DNA from: Polytrichum commune
Taxonomy: Eukaryota > Streptophyta > Polytrichopsida > Polytrichales > Polytrichaceae
Assembly (NCBI GenBank): GCA_950295325.1
Contig: OX485807.1
Location: forward strand, 21,919,666 to 21,983,665
Direction: 5' to 3'
Length of the DNA: 64,000 nucleotides
Shown: piece by piece, positions 1 to 41,275 of the stretch
Layout: each line of letters opens with the position of its first letter
Numbering within the stretch: position 1 is the first letter of the stretch
Translations under genes and position numbers: made by a program
The notes under the pieces: generated by a model
The model's input: the letters and a program-made list of their open reading frames with translations, nothing else
The model's database searches: none
Told to the model about the DNA's origin: nothing

Positions 1-276
1 TTTCATTAAAACCTAGAATCACGTGCGTTCACTGCATACTCTAAAAACCCCCTATATACAAATTATTTTTTGTGAAATGAAGTAATACACATACAATTGC
101 AACAATAAATATACAAGTGACAATATGTATACACAAAAAAACATCTATTCATATATAGTCATTAACATAAGTATACAAATATACTTTTGAACAATAATCA
201 ACCCCTATAATATGTATAACAAAATATCGTAGCTTTCATCAGCAAAGTCATTGAAAACTTTTTCATCTCCCGGATG

Positions 277-474
277 TCACTCATAAATATTTGATTCACC
301 AATATATGTCATTGTAGCCAATGCAATTATTGTCTCTAAGTCTACCATCAAATGATCAGTAAGATCATATGTCCACTTGTTGTTAGCCCCTTTTTGATAC
401 CAACATAAACCAATCTCCACGTTTGATGGATGGTGTGTACTCAAATTCAAGGACTTCCTTTCCCACGGCTTCAA
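277..474 (-). pseudogene. TE1 short ORF, C-terminal part, copy 1 (nonsense at 277)
   Basis: This frame overlaps the AUG1-like frame but is offset. From about residue 20 it reads IGLCWYQKGANNKWTYDL and then DHLMVDLETIIALATMTYIG, which matches the intact 71-aa ORF of TE1 copy 3 (40396-40611). A TGA replaces the TTA (Leu) codon of copy 3, which removes the last 15 or so residues. Copy 2 has the same stop. The first 18 or so residues of the open frame are out-of-frame captured DNA, so this is not a functional ORF. I do not know the function. Confidence 0.6.
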
Positions 475-595
475 ATGCCCCTTTCAGCCATGCCTCCACA
501 TCTGCCACATGCGATGCATCGAACACCCCATCCCCGGCACTCCCATTCCCATTTCCAATTTCCAATGTAGCAGCAACACTGCTTAAACCAACCAT
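383..595 (-). pseudogene. Captured AUG1-like (augmin subunit 1) N-terminal exon fragment
   Basis: The first ATG is at 595, giving a 70-aa reading frame; the open frame starts upstream at 613 from a GTG. Residues near the middle read VADVEAWLKGAFEAVGKEV followed by EFEYT, which resembles the N-terminus of plant augmin subunit 1 (HAUS1 family, a microtubule-nucleation complex). There the usual motif is about EVKAWL..FEAAGKEVP.FEYT. The rest of AUG1, a coiled-coil protein of about 300 aa, is absent. The frame runs about 11 codons into element sequence and stops. I recognise the family from memory of its motif, so homology needs a search. A chimeric transcript is possible but unproven. Confidence 0.55.
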
Positions 596-1589
596 GTCCT
601 CCTGAACCCTCACTGAACACTACATCACCTGCTGCAGAAGAAGAAGCCAGTGACGAGACCTAAGATTCCCTAAACCCCGAATGTTATTAATCCAAAAACC
701 CCAAGCATCTGAGCTACTTGACCCTTTCTCCCAAGCATCTTCCTACATCTCCATTTCAGACGCTCTCGTCAAATCCACCCTGCATTTGAATGATGAGGCC
801 TGACATTCCCTAAATCGAAATCTCTGCAAATGTATTTAACCCTCCAACCCCAAGCATCCGCGTTACCTAAGCAGCTTACCGCATCGTCTTCCTTTGAGAT
901 TCTCTCTCCATCCACCCTGCTTCTAAATGATGAGGCCTGAAATCTCCTAACCCACAGTCTCTGCAAATGTGGTTAACCCACTGACCCTAAGCATCTGAGC
1001 CACCCAAGGAGCTTCCTAGACCATCTTCCTTTCAGATTCTCTCTTCAAATCCACCATGCATTTGAACCATGAGCCCTAGCAAGCATTTCCTAACCCCCAA
1101 ATCTCTTCAAACGTCATAAATTCACAGACCCCAAGAATCTGAGCTACTCGCAATGAGCTCATCCGCCTTTTTCTCCCAATGAGATATTCCTAACTTACAT
1201 CTTCCATCCAGCTACTCTTTTTTTCAAGTTTCCAGTCACCGCCACCGAGCAACCTCCACCCTCGCTCTTTGGGTAGCTAGTATCAATCCCCGAAGCTTTT
1301 CTACCCGGAGAACCAAAGATTGCGTCTTCTAGCTCCGAATTTCAAAACGAGGCCATGACAATGTCAGGACTTTCGGTGATTCCCACGGCAGCAGTAACCG
1401 CAGGGACGTTGAGAAGCGCTGGAAGCAGCAGGTGAAAGAAGGAAAAGTGAAGCAGTTGTCGGCAAAAGAAGCAGGCTATGCGAGAAGAGAAAACAAAAAC
1501 CTTTGGTGTCCGACTATAAGAGAAAAGAAAAACCTTTAGCGCCCGACAAAAAGAGAAAACAAAAACCTAAGGATGGGAGGGGAAAAGGG
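419..1589 (-). other. Captured segment inserted in the TE1 ORF
   Basis: This stretch is present in copies 1 and 2 and absent from copy 3, where the flanks join directly at TCTCCTTGTTACT. The junctions share a TCC triplet. It holds the AUG1-like exon, about 60 bp of likely 5' leader, four degenerate tandem units of about 125 bp at about 655-1165, and about 2.5 units of a 37-bp CT-rich repeat near 1480-1560. It is GC-richer than the element around it. Either an ancestor captured host promoter and first-exon DNA, or copy 3 lost this segment. Confidence 0.6.
655..1165. repeat. About 4 tandem units of ~125 bp in the captured segment
   Basis: Each unit runs through AATCCACC.TGCATTTGAA, ATGATGAGGCCTGA.ATT, a TCTCTGCAAA-type stretch and CCCCAAGCATCTGAGCTAC, and the series repeats at about 780, 910 and 1040. 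Units have diverged visibly. The same array is in copy 2 around 29330-29620, 30957-31032 and 32133-32225, where two LTR insertions interrupt it. Confidence 0.75.
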
Positions 1590-1944
1590 TCCTTGTTACT
1601 TTGAGCTGAACGAATCATTTCAAAACCCTAATACTGCCTCTTTCCCCGATATTACCTTGACACCTTGTACATGGTTCATACTACCCTATAAGGTTGCTAA
1701 CGAAAATCGTTAATCCTAGTTAATCCTAATTTCATCCAATATGAAAACTTATGATATGTAGTATAGTAAAAGTACCATACAAGTACAATTATTGTATACT
1801 TTTTAAAGGCCTTCCATATATGTACGTAACTATAAATTATAACATGTATACCATATGTATACGTAATACGGCAAGGTCCAAATCAATACCCCTCCTGTGC
1901 ACTCACGTATACTCGTACATGTTTAGTACAGTGCACCCCCCGAG

Positions 1945-9400: not shown

Positions 9401-9550
9401 TGAAGGAGGTGGATGTGGTGGGCTCTATCACCTTACATGACCTTTGGGCTTGGTTTTATGTACACTAATAAAGGGGAGGGGGGGTCATGCACCTACAATT
9501 TTGAGTGGCAATTCATTATGGGATTTTATGTTCCAAGGGGCAAGGGTGGA

Positions 9551-11065
9551 TGTGAGCCCAAAATGGTGCCCACATGTGTTCTTAACCCTTTGAAACTATT
9601 AGAAGTTATGTTTTGATGTTTTATGATTATTCACAAAAATATAAAAAGAGTGAGGTTTGAGTAAGTTATGTTTAGACCTTAGGTTGATTAGAAGTTTAGC
9701 GGTATGAAGAAAATTCCTTAGTTAGGTGAACATAGTGTGTGGTGAACCAATGATGGCTCCTTGAGTTAAATGTTTTAATTAGGATCTATATGTTGGTTTA
9801 AGAGTTGAAGGCTTAAATGATAGGATGAGAGCTTACAAAGTAGGAAATGATCAAAAGGTTTATCTTGAGCCTTGGGGGTGTTTACCTACTCCCTTTCACC
9901 TCACTAAATAATCCCTACTCTCCCTTCTCCCTCTCCCTCTTTTCTTTGTGCTCCTTGACACCCCACATGTTATGAGTGTGGGTGTGTGAAAAGCAAGAAA
10001 GGAGCACGTGTGTGTGCAAGGTCTCAAGGTGAAGAACCAAGACTAATTAGCCTTGAAGTTAGTTGACATTTGTTAGAAATTGTCTTTGGTTTGAGGCATT
10101 TAGAGCTTAGCTCGTTGTGTTCAACTTATAGAATTTAGACTTATATCATTTAAATTTATAGTGTTTAGAATTATGATATTTAGAATTGTAGCATCTAAAT
10201 TCATGTTAGATTTAAAGCATTCAACCTTGTAGACTTTAAGGCGGAGGCCACATAGGCTAGCTGCTGGTTTAAAGTTGGAAGCAGTCAGCTTAGTTGCTGG
10301 TTTGAAGTTGGAGGCATTCGAGCTTAGCTGCTGGTTTGAAGTTGGAGACATTCGGGCTTAGCTGTTGGTTTGAAGTTGGAGGCATTCGGGCTTAGCTGCT
10401 AGTTTGAAGTTGGAGGCAGTTAGGCTTAGCGGCCGGGTTGAAGAGGGAGGCTAGTTAGGCCTAGCGGCTGGGTTAAGTAGAGCCAATTAGATTTAGCGAA
10501 TGGGTTAAGGAGGAATCTAGTTCCAACTAGTTGTGCACTCCCGAGTCTAAGCTAGATCGACAAGCTAAGTTACTACTAGTTAGTGAGGATGGTTAATTAG
10601 ACTAATTAATTAGGCTAGAGGGTTAGGCTAGTTGATTTAGTGGTTGCATTATGAGATGAAGTTGGGAAGGATTTGTGAGGGATTTGTGGAAGAGGAGGTA
10701 ATGTTAAGTTATATAAGTATTTTTCAACACTTGTATTAAAACTTATGTGCCTCATGGAATCAACACATCATAGCCTCAGCGAGGTGTCATGCACCAGTGA
10801 AGAATCGATAGTCAGAACCAAAATTGCAAAGGGGAAATCATTGAAGGCATGCGTGACAAAGACAATGGGGTGGACTCTGGAAAAAGCCAAGGATGTGTCT
10901 ATGCACGAGGTTCACACTAATAAACTGTCATGATTTGAATTAAGTTGGAAACTCATCAAGGTAGAACGTACATCCCATGTTACCACAAGTTGTTATGTTA
11001 CGCATGTGATCTCCAAACCTATTACCCGGACTAGGACGCTTAAGGGTGGTAGGTTTGGCCTTACA
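9551..11065 (+). mobile_element. Solo LTR C (same family as LTR A and LTR B)
   Basis: It starts TGTGAGCCCAAAATGG and ends TTACA, with likely 5-bp target duplications gtgga (9546-9550) and atgga (11066-11070). The first 300 bp match LTR A (29620) and LTR B (32127, minus) closely. The TATATAA box of A and B is mutated here. The length of 1515 bp exceeds A and B, partly because of a minisatellite at about 10254-10475. No internal retroelement domains adjoin it. ORFs inside it are not genes. Confidence 0.75.
10254..10475. repeat. Minisatellite inside LTR C, about 36-bp unit x6
   Basis: The core GCTTAGCTGCTGGTTTGAAG followed by TTGGAGGCATTCGG repeats about six times with substitutions. LTR A and LTR B do not carry it, so it arose after insertion or in this sub-lineage. 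Confidence 0.8.
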
Positions 11066-28390: not shown

Positions 28391-29619
28391 AGTAAGTACG
28401 CACCTACCAACTAAGTGCGCACCAACGGCTCCGGTTCAAAGTGTAGACTTAAGTAGGAAATTACTAATTGTAAAATCCTCTCGTAATGCCATGCGAAATC
28501 GGGGGGTGCACTGTACTAAACATGTACGAGTATACGTGAGTGCACAAGAGGGGTATTGATTTGGACCTTGCTGTATTACGTATACATATGGTATACATGT
28601 TATAATTTATAGTTACGTACATATATGGAAGGCCTTTAAAAAGTATACAATAATTGTACTTGTATGGTACTTTTATTATACTACATATCATAAGTTTTCA
28701 TATTGGATGAAATTAGGATTAACTAGGATTAACGATTTTCGTTAGCAACCTTATAGGGTAGTATGAACCACGTACAAGGTGTCAAGGTAATATCGAGGAA
28801 AGAGGCAGTATTAGGGTTTTGAAATGATTCGTTCAGCTCAAAGTAACAAGGACCTTTTTCCCCTCCCATCCTTAGGTTTTTGTTTTCTCTTTTTGTCGGG
28901 CGCTAAAGGTTTTTCTTTTCTCTTATAGTCGGACACCAAAGGTTTTTTTTTTCTCTTCTCGCATAGCCTGCTTCTTTTGCCGACAACTGCTTCACTTTTC
29001 CTTCTTTCACTTGTTGCTTCCAGCGCTTCTCAACGTCCCTGCGGTTACTGTTGCCGTGGGAATCACCGAAAGTCCTGACATTGTCATGGCGTCGTTTTGA
29101 AATTCGGAGCTAGAAGACGCAATCTTTGGTTCTCCGGGCAGAAAAGCTTCGGGGATTGATACTAGCTACCCAAAGAGCGAGGGTGGAGGTTGCTCGGTGG
29201 TGGTGACTGGAAACTTGAAAAAAATAGTAGTTGGATGAAAGATGTAAGTTAGGAATATCTCATTGGGAGAAAAAGGCGGATGAGCTCATTGCGAGTAGCT
29301 CATATTCTTGGGGTCTGTGAATTTACGACGTTTGAAGAGATTTGGGGACTAGGAAACGCTTGCTAGGGCTCATGGTTCAAATGCATGGTGGATTTGAAGA
29401 GAGAATCTGAAAGAAAGATGGTCTAGGAGGCTCTTTGGGTGGCTCAGATGCTTAGGGTCAATGGGTTAACCGCATTTGCAGAGACTGTGGGTTAGGAGAT
29501 TTCAGGCCTCATCATTTAGAAGCAGGGTGGATGAAGAGAGAATTTCAAAGGAAGACGATGCGGTAAGCTGCTTAGGTAACGCGGATGCTTGGGGTTGGAG
29601 GGCTAAATATATTTGCAGA

Positions 29620-30951
29620 TGTGAGCCCAAAATGGTGCTCATATGTGTTTTTAACTCTTCGAAACCATTAGAAGTTATGTTTTCATGTTTTATGATTATT
29701 TACAAAAATATAAAAAGAATGAAGCTTGAAGGAAGTTATGTTTAAGCATTAGGCTTGTGTGGAGTGGATTGATTAGAAGATTAGTAGTGTGAGAAAGCTC
29801 CTTAGTTGGGAAGCGTAGTAGGTGGAGAATCAAGGGTAGTTTCTTGAGTTAAAAGTTTCAATTAGGATCTAGGTTGTTCGTTTGAGGGACAAAGGCTTAG
29901 AAGATAAGATGAGAGTCTACAAAGTAGGGGAGGATAACGAAGGCTTATCTTGAGGGTGCTCACCTACTCCCTCTTAACCCACTATATAAACCCACACTCT
30001 TCCATTTCTCATTCTCTTTCCTTCGTGCTCCTTGGCACCCCACGTGTTATAAGTGTGGGTGTATAGGAAGCAAGATAGGAGCACATGTGTGTGCATGGTT
30101 TTAGGGTGAAGAGCCAAGACTAGTTAGCCTTGAGGTGGGCTTGACTTCTTGTTAGAAGTACCTTGGGTTGGAAGAATTTAGAGTGTGATTTATAGTCTTT
30201 AAATTGTAGTACTTGGATTCATGATATCCATACTTATAATTATTTACACTTACAAGGTTATGTTTGTGAAATATTGGAGCATTTAGTTTTGTTGGACTTA
30301 CAAAGTTACATTATTGAAGTAGGTGAGCTTGTATGTGTATGGAATAAAAGAGAGGCACGTAGGTATGCGATGTTATAAGGTGAAGAGTCAAGATCAATTA
30401 GTCTTGAAGATTAGCCTTACATTATTAGATGTGATTTAGACTCAAGGTATTCATGAACAAGTGCCTAGTTCTAGCATCTAGATTTTTAATATTGAAATTA
30501 TAGTATTTGGATTTATAGTATTCACTCTTATAATTTTAAAAATTATGATGTTTAGACTTATAGTGTTGGATTTACATTGGATAGGAGTACTTGGATGTGA
30601 TTTAGTATTGGATGTGGTTTAGACTCAAGGCATTCATGAATAAGTACCTAGCTCTAGCATCTAGATTTTTAGTATTGGAATTATAGTATTTGGATTCATA
30701 TTATTCACTCTTATAGTTTATAGACTTATGATGTTTAGACTTAAAGTGTTGGATTCATTAAATAGGAAGGGGTGTGTGTAACTTTTGAATGTATTGGTGA
30801 TTGACCATTGAGGTAAGTGTTTTTAAACACTCGCATTTTTTTGGTTAAAATAATTATATATTGAACTACCGAGGAGGGAGTTATTATGTGTTAGTCCAAC
30901 ATTTCACACTCGGGTTAGGACGAAATCAATGGTAAAAGATTTTGGATGACA
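29620..30951 (+). mobile_element. Solo LTR A nested in TE1 copy 2
   Basis: It starts TGTGAGCCCAAAATGG and ends GGATGACA; the flanks are gcaga (29615-29619) and acaga (30952-30956), a 5-bp duplication with one change. A TATATAA box lies at 29983-29989. It is 1332 bp. No internal retroelement domain or partner LTR is attached, so it is a recombined solo LTR. Its interruption of the 125-bp array is exact when compared with copy 1. Confidence 0.85.
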
Positions 30952-31032
30952 ACAGAGATTTCGATTTAGGGAATGTCATGCCTCATCATTCAAATGCAGG
31001 GTGGATTTGACGAGAGCATCTGAAATGGAGAT
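30952..31032. other. TE1 fragment stranded between two solo LTRs
   Basis: About 80 bp of the tandem array (GATTTCGATTTAGGGAATGT to CTGAAATGGAGAT) match copy 1 near 748-830 inverted. They show that A and B inserted independently into TE1. Confidence 0.85.
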
Positions 31033-32127
31033 TGTTACCCAAAGTTCCTCATCTTTGATTTCGTCCTAGTCCGAGTGTGGAATGTTTCACTGGCACGTAA
31101 TAACTCCCTCCTTGGTAGTTCACTGTATCATTCCAATACATTGAATCAAGTGCTCCTATCCAATGTGAATCCAACACTATAAATCTAAACATTATAAGTC
31201 TAAAAACTATAAGAGTGAATACTATAAATCCAAATACTATAATTCCAATACTAAAAATCTAGATGCTAGAGCTAGGCACTTATTCATGAATGTCTTGAGT
31301 CTGAATCACATCTAATAATGTAAGACTAATCTTCAATACTACTTGATCTTGACTCTTCACCTTATAACCTCGCACACCTACGTGCCTCTCTCTTACTCCA
31401 CACACACACAAGCTCACCTAATTCAATAATGTAACTTTATAAGTCCAACAAAACTAAATGCTTCAATGTTTCATAAACATAAATTTGCAAGTCTAAAGCA
31501 TTATAATTGTGGATAATATGAATCCGAGTACTACAATTTGAAGACTATAAATTAAATTCTAAATTCTTCCAAACCACACTACTCCTATCAAGAGGTCAAG
31601 CCTACTGAAGGCCAACTAATTTTGGCTCTTCACTTTAAAATCATGCACACACACGTGCTTCTATCTTGCTTCCCACACACCCACACTTGTAATACGTGGG
31701 GTGCCAAGGAGCACGAAGGAAAGATGAAGAGAGAAGGAAGAATGAGGGCTTATATAGTGAGTTGAGAGGCAGTAGTTGAGCACCCCCAAGGCTCAAGATA
31801 AGCCTTTTGTAATCCTCCCCTACTTTGTAGGGTCTTATCTTATCTTCTAAGCCTTTGTCCCTCAAACGAACAACATAAATCCTTATTCAAACATTTAACT
31901 CAAGAAACTACCCTTGGTTCTCCACCTACTACGTTCACCAACTAAGGAATTTCCTCACACTACTAATCTTCTAATCAATCCAGTCCACACAAGCCTAATG
32001 CTTAAACATAACTTATTTCGAGCTTCATTTTTTTTATATTTTTGTAAATAATCAATAAACATTAAAACATAACTTCTAATGGTCTCGAAGAATTAAGAAC
32101 ACATGTGAGCACCATTTTGGGCTCACA
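31033..32127 (-). mobile_element. Solo LTR B nested in TE1 copy 2, opposite orientation
   Basis: On the minus strand it starts TGTGAGCCCAAAATGG at 32127 and ends GGGTAACA at 31033. Perfect 5-bp duplications GAGAT flank it (31028-31032, 32128-32132). It has the same family TATATAA box and is 1095 bp. With LTR A it makes an inverted pair that could fold, which explains the long inverted similarity of 29.6-32.1 kb. Confidence 0.88.
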
Positions 32128-32282
32128 GAGATGTAGGAAGATGCTTGGGAGAAAGGGATAAGTAGCTTAGATGTTTGGGGTTTTGGATTAACGACATTCA
32201 AGGTTTAGGGAATCTTAGATCTCGTCACTGGCTTCTTCTTCTGCAGCATGTGATGTAGTGTTCAGTGAGGGTTCAGGAGGAC

Positions 32283-32495
32283 ATGATTGGTTTAAGCAGT
32301 GTTGCTGCTACATCGGAAAGTGGAGATGGGAATGGGAGTGCCGGGGATGGGGTGTTCAATACATCGCATGTGGCAGATGTGGAGGCATGGCTGAAAGTGG
32401 CATTTGAAGCCATGGGAAAGGAAGTCCCTGAATTCGAGTACACACCGTCCATCAAACGTGGAGATTGGTTTATGTTGGTATCAAAAAATGGCTAA
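32283..32495 (+). pseudogene. Captured AUG1-like N-terminal exon fragment, copy 2
   Basis: The ATG at 32283 gives 70 aa; an in-frame GTG at 32265 extends the open frame to 76 aa. Over 76 positions it differs from copy 1 at 10 residues. It keeps the proline of the AUG1 motif (GKEVPEFEYT) that copy 1 has lost. After IKR the frame enters TE1 sequence and stops at 32495. The rest of AUG1 is absent. See the copy 1 entry for the family evidence. Confidence 0.55.
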
Positions 32496-32601
32496 CAACA
32501 AGTGGACATATGATCTTACTGATCATTTGATGGTGGACTTAGAGACAATAATTGCATTGGCTACAATGACATATATTAATGAATCAAATGTTTATGAGTG
32601 A
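32404..32601 (+). pseudogene. TE1 short ORF, C-terminal part, copy 2 (nonsense after 32598)
   Basis: This has the same offset frame as copy 1: IGLCWYQKMANNKWTYDL then DLETIIALATMTY. The same TGA replaces the Leu codon seen in copy 3. That shared lesion groups copies 1 and 2 as sisters that share the capture. Confidence 0.6.
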
Positions 32602-32899
32602 CATCTGGGAGATGAAAAAGTTTTCAACGACTTTGCTGATGAAAACTACGATATTTTGTTATACATATTATAGGGGTTGATTATTGTTCAAAAGTATATT
32701 TGTATACTTATGTTAATGACTATATATGAATAGATGTTTTTTTGTGTATACATATTGTCACTTGTATATTTATTGTTGCAATTGTATGTGTAGTACTTCA
32801 TTTCACAAAAAATAATTTGTATATAGGGGGTTTTTAGAGTATGCAGTGAACGCACGTGATTCTAGGTTTTAATGAAAGGTGCACCGCCGAGCATGCGAA

Positions 32900-33714: not shown

Positions 33715-35025
33715 CTCGGGGGGGGGGGGGGCACTGGCGAAAAACGTAGGAACTACGTGCGATAAAATATAGGGTCTTGTATAAAAATTTGGCGTAAAAT
33801 TTGTAAATTATTAGATGTAGTATAGGGTGCTTTGGGATTGTGAAACATGATTATATGTAATATAGCATTTGACAAAACATGATTAAATTACCTAAGTGGT
33901 ACATATAAAATAGCATGGAGAAAAAGCGATATTTTCAAAAATTAAATACTTTGCTACCAAAATATGGCATGTTCTATATAGGAAGGGTTCAAAAGATAAG
34001 GGTGAAGGTTGGTACTAAGTGGGGCAATTGTTGACAACCCATTGACTTGATGAAACGTGTAGTCCAGAACGGAAATAGAGAAACGCTCTTCCCAACTGCT
34101 ATGGCTTACCTCCATTGGTTCAAAAAACAGCCGGGTCTCAACAAATATAAGTATGTTGAGAGTGGCTGTGTGTGGGTTGATATGGATGCTATTATCTCAA
34201 CTGTGTCTCTACTGTATGAATCAACTAGCAAAATCTACACCTTAGATGAGGTAGATGCAAACTCATTGAGTGAGTTCATTTCAAATAAAAAATAAAACTT
34301 GCTAAATTTGTACTATCTCACACATGTGGAGATATAATTTGGAAAAGGGCTGAATGATCATTAGTATACCTTGAAATCTGTAGTAATCATTTCAGTTCGA
34401 GTACCCTCATATCTCCCACATGTGTAAATGGTAGCCTAGCTAGTTTAGGTGGATTTTGCTTGCATGGCGTGGGATTTTCCTCCAATGTGTAGGATTGGAA
34501 TATCAAGGCATCAATTGTAGGGATTCTGCAAACCTTGTAAATGTGACTTTGAGACACATGTGGCTGGCCTGTTCCCTAAGACCTCAAGGTTTCTAACTGT
34601 GTTATCCAACACAACTTTTATTCGTTGGCTCGTGTTGCTTTATGACATGTAATTGCAATCTTTTGTTGTTATTGTTTAGTGTTTTGCTTTGCCCGGACTT
34701 CAGTGTGACCCTGAACCCTAAACCCTAGTAAATGTTTGTTTCTCTTACTCTGTACATGTGCTTCTAACAAGAATTCTACTGTATCATACACTTTAAGGAA
34801 TGGGGGCAATCAGGGGTAAAAAATACATATAATAAAATAGGGTACCATAAAATCAACCATCCAAGAATTTATAATTACCAATAGGGTGCATATAATTACA
34901 ACAATTTACCATTATTTCAAAAATTAGCATCCCTTATAATCCTTTCTCATAGGTAAATAGCCCCCATTTTAATAGGTCATTATCGCAGGTGTATGCAAAA
35001 TATACAAGGGAGTGCCCCCCCCGAG
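33715..35025 (+). mobile_element. TE2: TIR element related to TE1, with intact short ORF
   Basis: The ends are CTC, 14 G, CACT at the left and AGTGCCCCCCCCGAG at the right. Perfect 8-bp target duplications GATATCGA lie at 33707-33714 and 35026-35033. ACGTGCGATAA occurs 41 bp inside the left end and CATTATCGCAGGTG at the same depth inside the right end. Element length is 1311 bp. It carries an 81-aa ORF starting about 335 bp from the left end, as in TE1 copy 3. Confidence 0.88.
34050..34295 (+). CDS. TE2 short ORF, 81 aa, function unknown
   Basis: The first ATG is at 34050. The protein resembles the TE1 ORF: W[YF][QK]K...NK[WY].Y....(H/V)..VD[LM][ED][TA]II......Y/...S.IY.L ending in an acidic [FL]..F[AI]. 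Both proteins also begin M[IK]R..Q....E. I recognise no domain, signal peptide or membrane segment. It is small, mildly charged and probably alpha/beta. The ORF of TE2 has about 10 extra residues before the conserved Trp. Conservation between otherwise diverged elements suggests past selection. It may be an exon of a larger transposition protein or a DNA-binding accessory protein; neither can be decided here. Confidence 0.55.
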   Translation: MKRVVQNGNRETLFPTAMAYLHWFKKQPGLNKYKYVESGCVWVDMDAIISTVSLLYESTSKIYTLDEVDANSLSEFISNKK

Positions 35026-39690: not shown

Positions 39691-40011
39691 ATGCTTGCCC
39701 AAACCCTAAGCAAGCCCAAGGGCTATTGAGAAGTCACAACATTCCTTCCCAATAAAATCCACAACATTTCCTCGGGGGGTGCACCTTTCATTAAAACCTA
39801 GAATCACGTGCGTTCACTGCATACTCTAAAAACCCCCTATATACAAGTTTTTTTTTGTGAAATGAAGTAATACACATACAATTGCAACAATAAATATACA
39901 AGTGACAATATGTATACACAAAAAAACATCCATTCATATATAGTCATTAACATAAGTATACAAATATACTTTTGAACAATAATCAACCCCTATAATATGT
40001 ATAACAAAATA

Positions 40012-40385
40012 AAGGCACCACAAACCTTGGCTTGGTGGTTAGGGCTCATGACCCCCAATGAGGAGGTTGTGGGTTCTATTCCCCGTGCCGGCGTGGTGCT
40101 CACCACCTTAGTCCACCCAACTATGGTGGGGGGTCCTTGGACCTTGTTGTATGGGTACCTCAAAGTCCTTTTGGGGGGATACCATGTCCGGTATCTTCAA
40201 GGCACTAGTGGCTAGCTAGGAACTTGTATAGTGTGTCACTATAGTGTCCATCCTCAAAAGGGGAGAGTAGTATTTGTCCCAATGTCCCCTTGTCCAGTGG
40301 GCATCAGGTTATTGGCATTACGAACGGACACTTTATTCACGCCGGCCCCTTGCTTGAAAGGGGTTGGAGTTTCTATCTATCTATT
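40012..40385 (+). mobile_element. tRNA-derived SINE (family S1) nested in TE1 copy 3
   Basis: Exact target duplications ACAAAATA lie at 40004-40011 and 40386-40393. A box TGGCTTGGTGG at 40028-40038 and B box GGTTCTATTCC at 40072-40082 are each within one base of the Pol III consensus, 33 bp apart. The 3' end is a CTAT tail (TCTATCTATCTATT). The interrupted TE1 sequence is continuous in copy 1, which gives the empty site. It is non-coding. Perfect duplications and good promoter boxes suggest a recent insertion. Confidence 0.92.
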
Positions 40386-40395
40386 ACAAAATATC

Positions 40396-40611
40396 CTAGC
40401 TTTCATCAGCAAAGTTGTTGAAAACTTTTTCATCTCCCGGATGTAACTCATAAACAATTGACTCACCAATATATGTCATTGTAGCCAATGCAATTATTGT
40501 CTCTAAGTCTACCATCAAATGATCAGTAAGATCATATGTCCACTTGTTGTTAGCCCCTTGTTGATACCAACATAAACCTATCTCCTTGTTACTTTGAGTT
40601 GAACGAATCAT
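40396..40611 (-). CDS. TE1 short ORF, intact 71 aa, function unknown
   Basis: The ATG lies at 40611, about 326 bp from the element's right TIR. The protein starts MIRSTQSNKEIGLCWYQQ and ends VFNNFADES. It aligns with the TE2 ORF along most of its length, and the start lies at almost the same distance from the element end in both. Copies 1 and 2 have this frame split by the captured segment after about codon 10 and share a later stop. No known domain, signal or membrane segment is visible. It is the best candidate for the ancestral element-encoded peptide; a role in transposition is inference only. Confidence 0.6.
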   Translation of the reverse strand: MIRSTQSNKEIGLCWYQQGANNKWTYDLTDHLMVDLETIIALATMTYIGESIVYELHPGDEKVFNNFADES

Positions 40612-41275
40612 TTCAAAACCCTAATACTGCCTCTTTCCCCGGTATTACCTTGACACCTTGTACATGGTTCATACTACCCTATAAGGTTGCTAACAAAAAT
40701 CGTTAATCCTAGTTCATCCTAATTTCATCCAATATGAAAACTTATGATATGTAGTATAGAAACAATACCATACAAATACAATTAGTGTATGCTTTTTAAA
40801 GGCCTTCCATATATGTACGTAACTATAAATTATAACATGTATACCATATGTATACGTAATACAGCAAGGTCCAAATCAATACCCCTCCTGTGCACTCACG
40901 TATACTCGTACATGTTTAGTACAGTGCACCCCCCGAGAACATTTCCTACCATACTAACGTGTTTCATTCAAATGTGGATAGAATTTACACAATATTCATT
41001 TAAGTAGTCAAATCCATAATTATTCTATTGATCCTACTACACACATTTGGGAGTATCTAATATCTATGACCCTTTTTTTTCTACTGAACACTAAAATGGA
41101 GGAATTATTCACCACCCTATTTTACATATAATCATGTAGGGGACTTATTTCCAATGCTATGGTAGATCTAACGAATTTATAAAATTTACCCTCAATGAAT
41201 TAAATTGACCTTATTTTTTATCTCACGTGGTTTCTAAAATTCAGATAGTCACCTCCCCGAGGGTCCCATCAATGA

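Follow-up and report, generated by a model that had tools for sequence, protein, structure and literature searches.

Probable capture of an AUG1 5' fragment by a TIR transposon family and its spread in the genome of Polytrichum commune

How did part of a gene for an augmin subunit come to lie within a DNA transposon at several places in the genome of Polytrichum commune? The question is raised by the window analysed here, a stretch of 64,000 nucleotides (C5:21919666-21983665) of the 408-Mb genome. Comparison of the window with itself revealed three copies of one element with terminal inverted repeats (TIRs), TE1, designated A, B and C, with B opposite to A in orientation. A preliminary description had placed two of them at 1-1944 and 28498-32891, which agrees with the alignment, the TIRs and the target site duplications (TSDs), except that copy A begins 14 bases to the left of the window. 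The features of the window are:

1..1944, (-), the sense of the captured AUG1: TE1 copy A, with 14 bases of the left end outside the window; ends and TSD ATTGAACT
1..433, (-): left arm and first bases of the 3' coding region of the element's transposase; the same DNA is present in AUG1-free copies and codes for the last part of the transposase frame
432..1234, (-): captured AUG1 DNA of copy A, comprising the upstream region with a 137-bp tandem array, the leader and 54 codons
383..595, (-): chimeric ORF of 70 aa, consisting of 54 AUG1 codons and an element-derived tail of 16 aa
1235..1336, (-): MID, found at 10 genome places, all of them AUG1-bearing copies
1337..1589, (-): COM, the internal region common to 28 AUG1-free copies
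1590..1944, (-): right arm and right TIR
28490..28497, no strand: left 8-bp TSD of copy B (CATGCGAA)
28498..32891, (+): TE1 copy B
29208..29619, (+): captured AUG1 DNA in B, upstream piece, aligning to A 1234-823
29620..30951, (+): solo-LTR-like insert in B, TG..CA, with duplications GCAGA/ACAGA (one mismatch)
30953..31032, (+): captured AUG1 DNA in B between both inserts, aligning to A 826-747
31033..32127, (-): second solo-LTR-like insert in B, inverted, with the 5-bp duplication GAGAT
32128..32446, (+): captured AUG1 DNA in B, leader and exon-1 piece
32283..32495, (+): chimeric 70-aa ORF of B
32892..32899, no strand: right 8-bp TSD of copy B
39771..40937, (-): TE1 copy C, with no AUG1, MID or COM
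40012..40377 (approximate limits), no strand: SINE-like insert in copy C

The ends of TE1 read CTCGGGGGGTGCAC and GTGCACCCCCCGAG, with small changes at the left end of A and at both ends of B. All three copies are flanked by 8-bp target duplications (ATTGAACT for A, CATGCGAA for B and AACATTTC for C), which are exact in A and B, and their flanks are mutually unrelated. The search for ends was extended to 39 copy-bearing loci (L011-L050 minus the donor locus L031), allowing at most 6 errors per end and 2 bases of slack. Paired ends were obtained in 35 of these loci, 32 with an exact 8-bp duplication and three with one mismatch; a further row, from L032, in which the ends of two adjoining elements were paired (3 mismatches), was set aside from this count, and no end pair was found in L020, L039, L045 and L047. 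Under the same scoring, random flanks gave an exact 8-bp duplication in 25 of 20,000 cases. Nine of the ten AUG1-bearing copies carry both ends and a duplication of their own, among them L035 with one mismatch, while for L039 the search did not find the right end. The TIRs and the 8-bp duplication proposed earlier were thus borne out.

To identify the cargo, the first 59 residues of the peptide encoded by 32283-32495 were used as a phmmer query. The best match in the PDB sequences was AUGMIN subunit 1 (9na8_A, E = 7.7e-6; next best 0.33), and the Pfam HAUS1 model gave E = 0.024 with 14.9 bits, below its cut-off of 40. As judged from sequence, the AUG1 identity of the predicted peptide is settled by a donor gene in the same genome, at C2:30234917-30238103(-), within which C2:30238036-30238830 matches window positions 432-1234 at 90.8% identity. 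A profile search of the genome with HAUS1 yielded eight rows. Four of them lie in order along the donor gene (profile positions 2-61, 58-108, 92-150 and 181-236); three exceed the cut-off and one, with a TAG in the matched stretch, falls below it, so the donor gene need not be intact. The other four rows overlap at C2:59300117-59300922 in three frames, two of them exceeding the cut-off only together with their neighbours, and probably represent repetitive sequence. As 4 of 14 control genomes also gave HAUS1 matches under the cut-off, weak rows carry little weight. Both the donor and the PDB match uphold the earlier suggestion that the ORF resembles the start of augmin subunit 1, and neither of the two outcomes named at the outset as refuting it, a lack of AUG1 similarity or of a donor locus, was observed.

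The captured DNA is about 0.80 kb long (432-1234) and consists of 631 bp upstream of the ATG and 54 codons. It is cut within exon 1 at EYTP, where the donor continues RTVAHLHN, and the 16-codon tail of the ORF is element-derived, in a frame other than that of the transposase. The exon-1 codons postulated in the preliminary description are therefore present, not as a whole exon, and of its 1.17-kb AUG1 segment (419-1589) only 432-1234 stood, the remaining 0.37 kb or so not being AUG1. Its leader-like DNA and tandem array preceding the ORF were recovered in the donor, which contains the upstream region together with the 137-bp array. Neither a TE1 arm nor COM or MID was found in the 15 kb around the donor.

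Which parts beside the cargo belong to the element was assessed over the 39 loci, AUG1 matches shorter than 120 bp having been dropped before counting. The 39 comprise ten loci with AUG1, copy C, and 28 loci without an AUG1 match of at least 120 bp. The presence of COM in these 28 loci is not independent evidence, because they were found through COM (1337-1589). The left arm is present, whole or in part, in 27 of the 28, the exception being L045. The stretch from left arm to COM was inspected in 11 AUG1-free loci; it measures about 386 bp in six, is shortened or interrupted in L021, L022, L020 and L049 and was partly seen in L045. This stretch begins ACGTTTGATGGACGGT, which identifies 419-433 of copy A as element DNA. 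Filler DNA was considered for 419-431 and rejected, as these positions are the start of element coding DNA present in AUG1-free copies; together with most of 1337-1589 they belong to the element. The stretch is coding: it ends a 505-aa open frame in L039 (P0001), and relatives lie in frames of up to 1549 aa. As for MID, all 10 first-look candidates were scored, and about 15 bp at its COM side also occur in the AUG1-free copy L021. The bulk of MID could be element DNA that has been lost in other places, or else another piece that was captured.

Copy C had been described as a third copy without the segment, and it does lack AUG1. Its internal deletion joins 418 to 1590 (numbering of A) with a 3-bp overlap, TCC, and since the transposase frame survives in its left arm only as a truncated 3' end, C is a deletion product. 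It was accordingly rejected as a demonstrated pre-capture form, and its status as a capture-free sibling does not follow. The SINE-like insert of copy C has a TCTA tail, a short duplication around ACAAAATA and what we take to be tRNA-like box motifs. The extra length of copy B is made up of the two inverted solo-LTR-like inserts (29620-30951 and 31033-32127), which are 88% alike and came after the capture, because they interrupt the AUG1 cargo. A 77% relative of these inserts lies at 9549-10172. Another AUG1 copy contains a 365-bp insert (L036:2217-2581) rich in CCCATGCCCACC-like repeats.

The captured piece was indeed multiplied, as proposed: at least ten AUG1-bearing copies are present on the five large contigs C2, C3, C4, C5 and C7, a minimum, as 40 of 88 candidates were scored. 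Copies A, B, L032, L033 and L036 contain exon 1, whereas AUG1 starts from 821 on in L034, L035 and L039 and from 1011 on in L037 and L038. Joint columns that were not homologous were taken out before distances were computed. Identity to the donor ranges from 89.5 to 94.5% and identity among the copies from 92.1 to 97.7% (mean 95.8, 45 pairs). At 32 of the 785 columns the copies that cover them, four or more in each case, agree on one base where the donor has another, and the joint between MID and AUG1 is identical in the copies aligned. In a tree, A, B and L032 were joined with support of 91 and 95, and the other nodes were weak (18-72); as this tree was rooted on the donor alone, it is no test of single origin. 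The shared joint and the 32 columns, rather than the tree, give good support to one capture.

At the other side of the cargo the joints, read by eye, differ between the types. In the exon-1 copies ACCG is common to donor and element; in L034, L035 and L039 a 17-bp stretch matches, but for one difference, element DNA that lies about 40 bp beyond it; in L037 and L038 AGGA is shared. Overlaps of four or more bases are expected in about 2% of random joins, so this pattern only suggests a repair pathway, namely end joining with templated filler. Neither an intermediate nor an AUG1-bearing element with a complete transposase was found among the copies.

The carrier family is probably large, since the right arm gave 881 first-look candidates in the genome and the 40 scored were 99-100% identical. 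AUG1-bearing copies hold at most a C-terminal part of the transposase (505 aa open in L039), compared with frames of 1493-1549 aa in relatives. Two core pieces, P0002 (L059) and that of L060 (C4:55011590-55012350), show 52% identity over their aligned part and have AEDET, ASDGD, QDFxH and RQNW in common; the L060 piece adjoins a frame 94% identical to P0001. P0002 gave 96 matches, including 13 rows with frames of 1493-1549 aa, nine of these without a stop in the match. It is identical over its whole length at L059 (C3:22757600-22759000) and at C2:3112230-3113627. Recent activity of this transposase family, with its frames of about 1500 aa, is possible. Two further observations concern relatives of the family. 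Within the window, 33969-34277 is distantly related to the C-terminus of the TE1 transposase (28% identity, E 2e-7); it lies close to an GTGCCCCCCCCGAG end at 35012 and perhaps marks a related older family. L046:3884-5122 is another TE1-like element, which has about 80% identity with parts of the arms and perhaps represents a diverged subfamily.

Searches of the transposase pieces against Pfam, NCBIfam and PDB sequences gave no credible match. The best-scoring model, NUC153 in the L034 piece of 95 aa, reached 18.7 bits (E = 0.0016) and so fell short of its cut-off of 20.5; all others had E values of 0.11 or more. No Pfam hAT, MULE or P-type match was obtained among the library searches of the core (P0002, L060) and C-terminal (P0001, L034, L035) pieces. 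The hAT profile works in this genome, because the hAT dimerisation model matched 150 scored places. The P-type RNase H model PF21787 had 0 matches in the genome, a weak result, as no control matched either. Candidate relatives of core P0002 in viral contigs (4 pattern matches) and in genome contigs (47) were rejected, none being confirmed by tblastn.

TE1 shares the 8-bp target duplication and a short TIR with hAT elements and differs from them in the absence of a hAT domain in its transposase pieces and, presumably, in the TIR start CTCGG, which we take not to be of the hAT type. An 8-bp duplication alone would not exclude a MULE, and it fits P / THAP9-like transposases as well; the order of the family's predicted core, D (AEDET), D (ASDGD) and D-x-x-H (QDFVH), seems to us reminiscent of P-type cores. 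Helitrons also capture gene fragments and have neither TIRs nor target duplications, unlike TE1. The copies described here conform to Pack-TYPE elements, that is, non-autonomous TIR elements with target duplications that carry and multiply fragments of host genes: the AUG1-bearing copies have a TSD of fixed length, an identifiable donor and an incomplete transposase and, to judge from the paired ends and own duplications of nine of the ten, moved as a unit after capture. Classification as Pack-TYPE capture, made from the sequence at the outset, therefore stands. The remark that the TIRs are unlike those of usual Pack-MULEs fell short: the transposase pieces found no counterpart among the library families, and the carrier is thus more than a Pack-MULE of unusual form. 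One published study describes Pack-TYPE elements in the CACTA, hAT, PIF, Mariner and MULE groups and 8-nt duplications in all annotated hAT elements of rice and maize (PMC8903248). TE1 differs in that the examined transposase pieces of the family match no Pfam transposase model, and filing it as a Pack-hAT on the 8-bp duplication alone is not supported, because these pieces lack a credible library match. The evidence supports an event known in kind with a carrier that by profile fits none of the five groups. In the limited collection of literature searched, the TIR sequence was not found reported, and nothing was found on augmin gene fragments in transposable elements or on THAP9/P-element-type transposases in angiosperms; titles and abstract openings on P-like or new superfamilies gave no description of TE1.

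Taken together, these results very probably reflect a single capture of AUG1 DNA by TE1, followed by spread through transposition, with a cargo that is most likely neutral. TE1 would be a high-copy family of TIR DNA transposons, in which repair of broken element DNA once joined the internal part of an element to the 0.8-kb AUG1 piece with its upstream region, leader and 54 codons. Because the chimera kept both ends, it could be mobilised in cut-and-paste fashion by the transposase of the family, presumably supplied in trans by other copies, and inserted at new sites with 8-bp duplications. Later end-joining deletions would have deprived some copies of exon 1 or of transposase DNA. The initial repair may have been polymerase-theta-like end joining or gap repair with template switch. 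Tandem insertion followed by aberrant excision is among the routes of capture covered in a review (PMC13317346), and the missing TE1 arm near the donor neither proves nor excludes that model.

Several other histories were weighed against this one. AUG1 DNA at ten or more places could also stem from duplication or retrocopying of the gene and later hits by TE1, but the same joint of element and AUG1 recurs at different sites inside TIRs whose 8-bp duplications differ, the flanks of A, B and C are unrelated, and the 631 bp upstream of the ATG would be missing from a retrocopy of the usual transcript; we regard this as the least credible account. It is hardly more probable that the AUG1 5' region was gained from TE1. 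In its favour, the upstream 631 bp with their array are common to both. Against it, exon 1 has the codons of augmin subunit 1 and runs on into further HAUS1 matches, an AUG1 match of at least 120 bp is missing from 28 of the 39 copy-bearing loci, and the donor has no TE1 arm. Movement from gene to element is well supported by the sequence of exon 1, which matches augmin subunit 1 and is followed by RTVAHLHN in the donor. That AUG1 was captured at least twice, once to give the exon-1 type and once the promoter-only type, is unlikely, if less so. The exon-1 copies have more AUG1 and less element DNA than L034, L035 and L039, so that simple deletion does not turn one type into the other; yet an ancestor with both parts explains both by deletion, in keeping with the identical MID-AUG1 joint and the 32 columns at which all covering copies depart from the donor.

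An active cargo is about as improbable as separate captures. Transcripts or small RNAs from the promoter and exon-1 copies might alter AUG1 expression, or the 70-aa chimera might be a functional peptide. The copies have kept 631 bp of donor upstream DNA with the ATG and 89.5-94.5% identity to the donor; all five exon-1 copies keep the AUG1 frame open, with full ORFs in A and B; and over the first 51 codons dS exceeds dN in all five donor-copy pairs, which is expected from selection on the donor and not separable from selection on the copies. Against it, dN exceeds dS in 7 of the 10 pairs among the five exon-1 copies, with no sign of purifying selection on the chimeric ORF in the copy-copy comparison, and five of the ten copies are without exon 1. 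A neutral passenger is the most likely reading of the AUG1 cargo.

The capture is well traced within a single genome, from the donor gene to ten descendants and their later rearrangements, with one breakpoint exact and the other approximate, and it makes models of gene pick-up by TIR elements testable on real joints. Tentatively, and with more doubt than confidence, TE1 might be placed in a gene-capturing superfamily of plant DNA transposons outside hAT, MULE, CACTA, PIF and mariner, marked by CTCGGGGGGTGCAC ends and 8-bp duplications, by a transposase whose frame in relatives is about 1500 aa long and whose D / D / D-x-x-H core is conserved, and by its presence at scores of places in the genome. 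If the carrier does not belong to the usual TIR superfamilies, gene-capturing elements of this sort would escape surveys that start from those, and gene capture would extend to a superfamily in which it has not been looked for.
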